NCBI GenBank assembly: GCA_000961845.1
Contig: LADZ01000021.1
Location: 62,001 to 126,000 of the forward strand
Length of the DNA stretch: 64,000 nt
Direction of reading: 5' to 3'
Origin: Flavobacteriales bacterium BRH_c54
GTDB taxonomy: Bacteria > Bacteroidota > Bacteroidia > Flavobacteriales_E > Vicingaceae
Every line of letters starts with the position of its first letter. Positions within the stretch are counted from its first letter, which is position 1. Shown here piece after piece: positions 17,107 to 60,296 of the stretch. Both the position numbers and the translations under genes were made by a program. The notes under the pieces were generated by a model, which ran no database searches, was not told the DNA's origin, and saw nothing but the letters and a program-made list of their open reading frames with translations.

Positions 17107-17226
17107 GAGATTAAAAAAGTTATTCGTTAACTGTTATTTGTTAATCTTATAAAGTTCGACAATCAAATATTTGTGGCTGAATAAAATTTTCCTATTTTTA
17201 ACTTTTAAACTTAAAAATATAAAAAT

Positions 17227-58486: not shown

Positions 58487-59140
58487 TTACAACTTCATTT
58501 CAGGAATATCGCCTTCAATAATTAGTTTTCCGGCTGTAGCGGCTTTAATTTCTTCTACACTAACACCCGGAGCTCTTTCTTTTAGATGAAAAGCACCATC
58601 TTTTATTTCTAAATAAGCCATATTGGTTACCACTTTAGTAACACAACCCACTCCTGTTAGCGGTAGTGTGCATTGTTCCAACAATTTGCTTTCGCCTTTT
58701 TTGTTGGTATGCATCATGGCAACAATAATATTTTCTGCTGAAGCTACTAAATCCATAGCTCCCCCCATTCCTTTTACCATAACACCCGGTATTTTCCAAT
58801 TGGCAATATCTCCATTTTGAGCTACTTCCATGGCTCCCAACACAGTCAATTGCACATGCTGTCCTCTAATCATAGCAAAACTAGTAGAAGAATCAAAGAT
58901 AGATGCTCCCGGTTGTAAGGTTACGGTTTGCTTTCCCGCATTTATCAAATCTGCATCTTCTTCCCCTTCAAAAGGAAATGGTCCCATACCTAAAATACCA
59001 TTTTCAGATTGAAATTCTACGGTTATGCCTTTGGGAATGTAATTCGCTACCAATGTAGGAATTCCTATCCCTAAGTTTACATACCATCCGTCTCTTAATT
59101 CTTGTGCTATTCGTTGTGCTATTCCGTTTTTATCTAACAT
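58487..59140 (-). CDS. scoB: 3-oxoacid CoA-transferase subunit B
   Basis: A 217-residue beta subunit. The active-site Glu is in VEFQSENGILGMG; other motifs are NLGIGIPTLVANYIP, IRGQHVQLTVLGAMEVAQNG and ITVEF. With ScoA it transfers CoA from succinyl-CoA to acetoacetate. The partner gene scoA lies upstream, but instead of the usual near contact the two are separated by an inverted-repeat element with a four-helix-bundle gene, leaving only about 5 nt between that element's left arm and the ATG. Confidence 0.95.
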   Translation of the reverse strand: MLDKNGIAQRIAQELRDGWYVNLGIGIPTLVANYIPKGITVEFQSENGILGMGPFPFEGEEDADLINAGKQTVTLQPGASIFDSSTSFAMIRGQHVQLTVLGAMEVAQNGDIANWKIPGVMVKGMGGAMDLVASAENIIVAMMHTNKKGESKLLEQCTLPLTGVGCVTKVVTNMAYLEIKDGAFHLKERAPGVSVEEIKAATAGKLIIEGDIPEMKL

Positions 59141-59144
59141 ACTT

Positions 59145-59179
59145 TAATGTAACAATTTGTTAATTTACCAATGTAGCAA
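59145..59179 (+). repeat. Left inverted-repeat arm
   Basis: The arm reads TAATGTAACAATTTGTTAAT and continues with TTACCAATGTAGCAA. It pairs with 59556-59590. The GTTACA-type motif occurs at both ends of the partner arm. Confidence 0.65.
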
Positions 59180-59198
59180 TTATGATAACTACTACTTA

Positions 59199-59549
59199 TT
59201 ATTTTAGCTTTTTACTTGTACTTAATATTTTATATATAATTAATCCTATTTCTTTAATCTGATTTTCCAATTCTATATTAAAAGGATATGTTTTTGCTTT
59301 TTTGCATAAAATTAACCAATATTTAGTTTCATCTAATTCTTTAGCGGCTATCTTTATTTTATGTATAAAATCTGCTTTACTTTCTGCATTTTGAGCTTCG
59401 TGAACATTTGCACCAATAGCTGTTCCTGAACGAAGTAATTGATTTGCTATAACAAACTTTCTTTTTGATTCTAACTCCTCACAAAATTCAATTATTAACA
59501 ATGAAAAATTGATGGTCTTAGTTACAATTAAGTTGTCTTTTATCTCCAT
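59199..59549 (-). CDS. Four-helix-bundle protein (23S rRNA intervening-sequence type)
   Basis: A 116-residue helical protein with the family hallmark: ANQLLRSGTAIGANVHEAQN, then AESKADFIHKIKIAAKELDE and TKYWLILCKK. Members are encoded inside intervening sequences of 23S rRNA genes or are scattered in genomes; they bind nucleic acids weakly, and their role is unclear. The gene sits in a 35-nt inverted-repeat unit between scoA and scoB, which is not the rRNA context. A start at the ATG 59549 follows directly after the right arm region. Confidence 0.88.
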   Translation of the reverse strand: MEIKDNLIVTKTINFSLLIIEFCEELESKRKFVIANQLLRSGTAIGANVHEAQNAESKADFIHKIKIAAKELDETKYWLILCKKAKTYPFNIELENQIKEIGLIIYKILSTSKKLK

Positions 59550-59555
59550 AAAATA

Positions 59556-59590
59556 TTGTTACATTGGTAAATTAGTGAATTGTTACATTA
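59556..59590 (+). repeat. Right inverted-repeat arm
   Basis: The arm opens TTGTTACATTGGTAAATTAG and continues TGAATTGTTACATTA, and matches the reverse complement of the left arm with four differences. It contains a direct repeat of TTGTTACATT at its start and end. Confidence 0.65.
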
Positions 59591-59591
59591 T

Positions 59592-60296
59592 TTACGAGCG
59601 TGAGCGAGTAGTACGTTGTTCTATACGTTTTTCGTAGTCTTTTCCTTGGAATATTCGTTGTACAAAAATTCCTGGCGTATGAATATGGTTAGGATCTAAT
59701 TCTCCTTCAGGCACTAATTCCTCTACTTCGGCAATAGTAATTTTTCCTGCCATAGCCATAACTGGATTAAAATTAGCTGCAGTATATTTATACACTAAGT
59801 TTCCAGCAGTATCACCTTTCCAAGCTTTAACAATTGCAAAATCTGCTGTTAATGCAGCTTCCAAAATATGTGGTTTACCATTAAACTCTCTCACTTCTTT
59901 GCCTTCGGCTACTTCTGTTCCATAACCTGCGGGAGTAAAAAATGCCGGAATACCGGCTCCTCCTGCTCTACACCTTTCTGCTAACGAGCCTTGTGGAATT
60001 AAATCTACCTCAAGTTCTCCACTAAGCATTTGTCTTTCAAACTCATCATTTTCACCAACATAAGAAGAAACCATTTTTTTAATTTGCTTCTTTTGCAACA
60101 ACAATCCTAATCCAAAATCATCTACACCTGCATTATTTGAAATACAGGTTAACTCTTTAATATTAGATTTCACCAACTCCGCAATGCAATTTTCAGGAAT
60201 ACCACACAAGCCAAAACCTCCAACCATTAACGTCATTCCACTTTCTATTCCTTTTATAGCTTCTTCAGCATTTTTTACCACTTTATTAATAGCCAT
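59592..60296 (-). CDS. scoA: 3-oxoacid CoA-transferase subunit A
   Basis: A 234-residue alpha subunit with [60 protein letters not shown] and [20 protein letters not shown]. It shares the CoA-transfer reaction with ScoB. It starts 22 nt after the PBP1A gene on the same strand. The C-terminus (EQRTTRSRS) is ordinary, so the adjacent element did not obviously truncate it. The fumarylacetoacetase product acetoacetate is a plausible substrate. Confidence 0.95.

Follow-up and report, generated by a model that had tools for sequence, protein, structure and literature searches.

Four-helix-bundle genes between inverted arrays of 7/8-nt words: a candidate class of intervening-sequence-like elements at operon junctions

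Between scoA and scoB of Flavobacteriales bacterium BRH_c54 lies a small gene for a four-helix-bundle (4HB) protein, and it is bracketed by two inverted arrays of degenerate 8-nt words. We examined relatives of this gene in Bacteroidota and on plasmids of cyanobacteria, and most of them share the layout, with words of 7 or 8 nt. This suggests that small genetic elements of a widespread type, apparently not described before, reside within operons. With moderate confidence, we read the scoAB unit as a member of a widespread, compact type of element resembling the intervening sequences (IVS) of 23S rRNA, in which a 4HB gene sits at an operon junction between inverted 7/8-nt arrays; these would pair into a stem once transcribed into mRNA, and the protein would recognise its own words. 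The word arrays, their tie to the protein clade and a strict orientation bias go beyond the first-pass annotation of the window (the whole 64,000-nt stretch of DNA that was analysed).

The unit between scoA and scoB

The spacer between the two genes is 451 nt long and contains the 4HB gene and both arms (Table 1). An inverted-repeat search gave arms of 36 nt each that are 89% complementary, with 374 nt between them. Thirty-two of the 36 positions pair, compared with 27 for the best 36-mer among 2000 composition shuffles. The fit is close: 1 nt separates the scoA stop codon from the 5' arm, and 4 nt separate the 3' arm from the scoB start codon.

Table 1. Features of the scoAB locus, in window positions
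Feature	Position	Strand	Profile match or words
scoA, 3-oxoacid CoA-transferase subunit A, upstream cistron	59592..60296	-	TIGR02429, 272 bits (cut-off 128.5)
5' arm in message	59555..59590	-	AATGTAAC AATTCACT AATTTACC AATGTAAC
4HB gene, 116 aa	59199..59549	-	PF05635 23S_rRNA_IVP / TIGR02436
3' arm in message	59145..59180	-	reverse complement is AATGTAAC AATTTGTT AATTTACC AATGTAGC
scoB, 3-oxoacid CoA-transferase subunit B, downstream cistron	58487..59140	-	TIGR02428, 324 bits (cut-off 243.55)

The 4HB protein scores 78.1 bits against PF05635 (cut-off 33.8, E = 7e-22) and 88.2 bits against TIGR02436 (cut-off 24, E = 4e-25) in the profile search, and a sequence search gave one solved relative, 2rld. 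Avd of the diversity-generating retroelements is also a four-helix-bundle relative of the IVP family; the reverse transcriptase and template/variable repeats of such retroelements were not noted beside the scoAB unit in an unsystematic reading. The 4HB gene is the sole ORF of at least 60 aa inside the unit, and no transposase is encoded there as judged from these ORFs and the profile search.

Much of the first-pass annotation held up. It had seen inverted arms around a gene, fitted snugly between two subunit genes, and the profile matches identify those genes as scoA and scoB. It had also proposed that the paired arms could form a long stem in the scoAB message, and the predicted RNA fold of the unit does close the arms (-80.2 kcal/mol, z = -2.1, modestly better than shuffles). 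Its description of a single 35-nt inverted-repeat unit needs to be changed in one respect: the arms are inverted and are 36 nt long, but each consists of a few degenerate 8-nt words in a row rather than one repeat. The tandem-word signal of the window copy is weak by itself and was recognised mainly via relatives. Elsewhere in the window, the only segment above threshold at lag 7 or 8 is an AT-rich stretch at 17186. Gene-less arm-like hairpins do occur elsewhere. A search of the genome, which the annotation had proposed, found no near-identical further copy of the unit, and a scan with the arm pattern at 3 mismatches stayed near control level with the exception of one gene-less hairpin.

The likeness to 23S rRNA IVS elements, also drawn in that annotation, is borne out. 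The IVS with an S23p ORF in Coxiella burnetii (PMC4990558) carries a gene of the same protein family; both elements are about 430–450 nt long with complementary ends around an ORF, and both have a predicted stem that is a candidate RNase III target, the cut in scoAB being proposed by analogy. In contrast to the IVS, which lies within the 23S rRNA gene, the scoAB unit lies in a protein-coding operon. Its arms are 8-nt word arrays, and the comparison with the rRNA IVS arms is one of complementarity.

Word arrays, proteins and genomic homes

The TIGR02436/PF05635 family is present in 59 of the 60 relatives searched, with up to 12 copies per genome, and the BRH_c54 genome itself has ten PF05635 matches. 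At seven of these ten, the inverted repeat across the gene beats all 50 shuffles, and each has its own sequence. One family member in this genome (L011), whose neighbours read as queA and ispD, has neither an inverted repeat nor word arms; its protein has a C-terminal extension, and this member may have become settled.

We measured periodicity by autocorrelation of the 160-nt flanks of 203 distinct 4HB units from relatives and genome contigs, with a threshold of z > 4 and with control segments 900 nt away. The flanks were periodic at 7/14 or 8/16 nt in 149 of the 203 units (lag 7 or 14 in 71, lag 8 or 16 in 78). Other lags appeared in 16 units, and about a quarter had no clear periodicity. Around 4HB units no lags other than 7, 8, 14 and 16 were preferred, while 12 of 235 control segments passed the threshold at any lag and favoured none. 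As a stricter control we used spacers of the same loci, where 148 of the 207 that adjoin 4HB genes were positive versus 15 of the 100 other spacers. Arrays without a 4HB neighbour do exist, because the lag was once more 7, 8 or 16 in 11 of these 15. The arms are inverted far more often than direct (130:15, among 147 units).

Related proteins tend to have words of the same length. Mapped on a tree of 197 proteins, word length changes 13 times, while shuffled labels average 49 changes with a minimum of 42. Among units with unrelated neighbour genes, the 6-mer similarity of the arms goes from 0.075 to 0.152 with rising protein identity (background DNA is at about 0.08 in the same comparison), and arm vocabulary at unrelated junctions correlates with protein identity at r = 0.385, against a permutation maximum of 0.057. 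These sequence comparisons suggest that each 4HB protein may recognise its own words, and a match between word and protein would be equally expected from shared ancestry of moved units.

By simple ORF calls, both neighbours are co-directional with the 4HB gene in 174 of 197 units. Where the two neighbours agree, the unit never opposes them (174:0 overall, 118:0 without the scoAB units), and this argues for action in RNA or for a need of the operon's transcript. Neighbour genes other than sco were named from reading their sequences. Recurrent homes include scoA/scoB, with 56 units, sdhA/sdhB, carA/carB, sufB/sufC, sufD/sufS, sufS/sufE and hmgA/hpd.

Our cyanobacterial sample consists of seven annotated 4HB genes from plasmid records, with homes such as nrdB/nrdA, cas6/cas4 and AAA ATPase gene/ParB. 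Six of the seven have inverted heptamer arrays of GC-rich words (e.g. GGGAGTA, GGGAACA, GGTGACA, GGGTGTA), and these heptamer-bracketed genes lie on plasmids of Nostoc, Calothrix brevissima, Anabaena and Geminocystis. The remaining unit, from Calothrix PCC 7716, has a z of 4.0 and no inverted repeat. The orientation rule is not universal, because two of the seven plasmid units oppose their neighbours. On plasmid pANA02 of Anabaena sp. 90 (L263), a heptamer-armed 4HB unit separates cas6 from cas4 within a CRISPR operon of type I-D.

Age and turnover at the junctions

The 56 scoAB units were located in Flavobacteriales and beyond, and the Flavobacterium loci L107 and L109–L112 are among the carriers. 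The 4HB distances correlate with those of scoAB (r = 0.62, against a permutation maximum of 0.20). On the scoAB tree, in which sampling favours occupied loci and gain and loss are indistinguishable, occupancy switches 12 times or more. Judged from these comparisons the scoAB copy is old and of mostly vertical descent, now and then lost or regained. A fresh insertion is ruled out, since the unit tracks the scoAB phylogeny. Relatives whose scoA-scoB is without the unit, which the first-pass annotation had suggested looking for, were found: the junction in relatives is either occupied by a unit with the same vocabulary or has 2–35 nt or other inserts, and the unit is missing from many close relatives, where the junction is 2–35 nt.

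Among near relatives, the dN/dS of the 4HB protein is 0.04–0.23, which indicates purifying selection, and the number and spelling of the words vary between close relatives. The scoAB arms pair better with their own partners than with those of other species (28.4 vs 24.3; none of 5000 permutations was as high). The difference is modest, and own-partner pairing that is only somewhat better falls short of demonstrating strong selection on the stem.

The main alternative is that the unit at scoAB is a domesticated regulator with a host function, whose 4HB protein would bind the arms of the message that encodes it and adjust how scoA and scoB are balanced or how stable they are. We believe this to be rather unlikely. 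In its favour are the age and mostly vertical descent of the unit at scoAB, the strong purifying selection that its protein is under, and arms that retain the same vocabulary, but many close relatives have a junction of 2–35 nt in its place and other members of the family sit in unrelated operons. The dN/dS does not separate the two readings, as a self-serving element needing its protein would give an equal value.

Some scoA-scoB junctions hold something else. In the 971-nt gap of one relative (L033, G001), a 5' array of the same words precedes a lipoprotein-like gene that encodes about 300 aa, including an HEFLH motif; this gap has no 4HB gene and no clear 3' arm, and the inserted gene has no Pfam match. 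Another gap, of 1319 nt (L079, G009), has a 393-aa lipoprotein-like gene and no evident word arms. A third, of 85 nt (L026, G017), contains another palindrome, formed by CGTCATTGCGAGGAACGAAGCAATCTC with its complement, so the junction accepts several kinds of palindrome.

The class turns over, because within one genus such junctions can be cleanly empty or can hold a gene-less hairpin. The junction of one BRH_c54 unit (L004) is cleanly empty in four sister species, with 15–28 nt between the flanking matches; comparing occupied and empty sites by eye, we saw no evident target duplication, and the boundaries run into coding sequence. In G003 the same junction (L272, 506–1474) holds a 322-aa gene with same-vocabulary heptamer words on either side, and this gene has a weak HARE-HTH match that is under the family cut-off. 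At sdhA/sdhB there is a 4HB unit with 7-nt words in BRH_c54, G004 and G005, and a gene-less hairpin of 8-nt words in G002 and G003. The junction between dut and a nucleotidyltransferase gene has a gene-less 8-nt-word hairpin in BRH_c54 (G000) and G004, and in G003 (L310) and G001 (L311) it has a DUF3843 gene, about 560 aa long, with words nearby. The HARE-HTH-like and DUF3843 genes near words are perhaps cargo or mere neighbours. Exact gene-less hairpins in the vocabulary of the scoAB unit were found in this genus only, among 46 genomes, at sites that read as atpA/atpG and etfB/etfA.

Gene-less arrays and hairpins, words that differ in count and spelling between close relatives, and the other genes adjoining words in G003 and G001 could all be explained if arrays arise by themselves in operon junctions, through slippage and hairpin-templated repair, and 4HB genes merely land or are kept there. 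However, the association with 4HB genes far exceeds that of other spacers, and word length and vocabulary go with the 4HB protein, also where the junctions are unrelated. We judge this explanation to be unlikely.

Inverted ends, polymorphic presence and gene-less short copies would also fit the remnant of a DNA transposon or MITE, with a transposase acting in trans and the 4HB gene as a passenger. Like MITEs and REP-type palindromes, the gene-less hairpins of this genus are short and intergenic, and they consist of 8-nt words in the vocabulary of the scoAB unit, spelled differently. The 4HB units differ in that their arms are tandem words and their ends vary from unit to unit with no common terminal sequence; the units examined have no transposase, target duplication is not evident at the L004 empty sites, and the orientation is non-random. 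We find a transposon remnant very improbable. Chance, by which AT-rich flanks would happen to look repetitive and complementary, is hardly credible: the window copy is AT-rich with a weak tandem signal of its own, but the preference is confined to lags 7 and 8 and twice these values, the cyanobacterial words are GC-rich, and the shuffle, flank and spacer controls exclude composition as the origin of the arms.

Proposed action and related repeats

We return to the IVS-like element as our preferred reading. The element would be transcribed within the operon message, where its arms would pair into a long stem between scoA and scoB. RNase III or another nuclease could cut this stem, and both cistrons would then stay usable. 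We favour action in RNA because of the co-directional placement, the paired arms and the precedent of the IVS elements of the same family, which are excised by RNase III in Coxiella (PMC4990558). The 4HB protein would bind the words, either in RNA or in DNA that is single-stranded, and may help to keep, spread or tame its own element. Copies presumably reach new junctions; no movement event was directly observed, and no transposase or target duplication was seen in the units examined.

Short tandem words are known from other intergenic repeats. The cyanobacterial STRR and the G-rich heptamers of Xanthomonas and Nostoc (PMC4692102) are likewise short intergenic tandem words, of 7 nt, and many of the Xanthomonas heptamers occur as inverted pairs (PMC4692102). 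The scoAB words differ from the 7-nt STRR units in being 8 nt long and AT-rich, while units of relatives have 7-nt words. Xanthomonas has both GGGAATC arrays and an S23 gene. On Nostoc plasmids, 4HB genes have heptamer arrays around them, and this hints at a connection with the long-standing puzzle of the cyanobacterial heptamers, the likeness to STRR being judged by word length and layout. The TAACTGA repeats of Beggiatoaceae (PMC4679880) are also heptamer arrays between genes and near start codons, as here, but they are reported as direct repeats, unlike the inverted arms of the scoAB unit. The main texts of PMC4692102 and PMC4679880 do not mention the 4HB family.

We found no literature joining the IVP/S23 family to 7/8-nt arrays, which is weak evidence of novelty as most subscription journals were outside the search. 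The accessible literature states no function for the family outside the rRNA IVS case. Tentatively, we put forward a broader claim that we consider possible but short of probable: IVP/S23 genes and 7/8-nt arrays together may form an unrecognised class of mobile elements in Bacteroidota and cyanobacteria, gene-bearing, gene-less and perhaps cargo-swapped, with each protein clade making or recognising words of its own and with STRR and other known heptamer repeats as their remains.

The tie between 4HB genes and word arrays is a concrete, testable hypothesis, in which each protein would bind its own words and the stem would be cut in the mRNA. It offers a possible origin for the heptamer repeats of cyanobacteria, which have been noted for decades, and it names a force that may be remodelling the junctions between enzyme-subunit genes.
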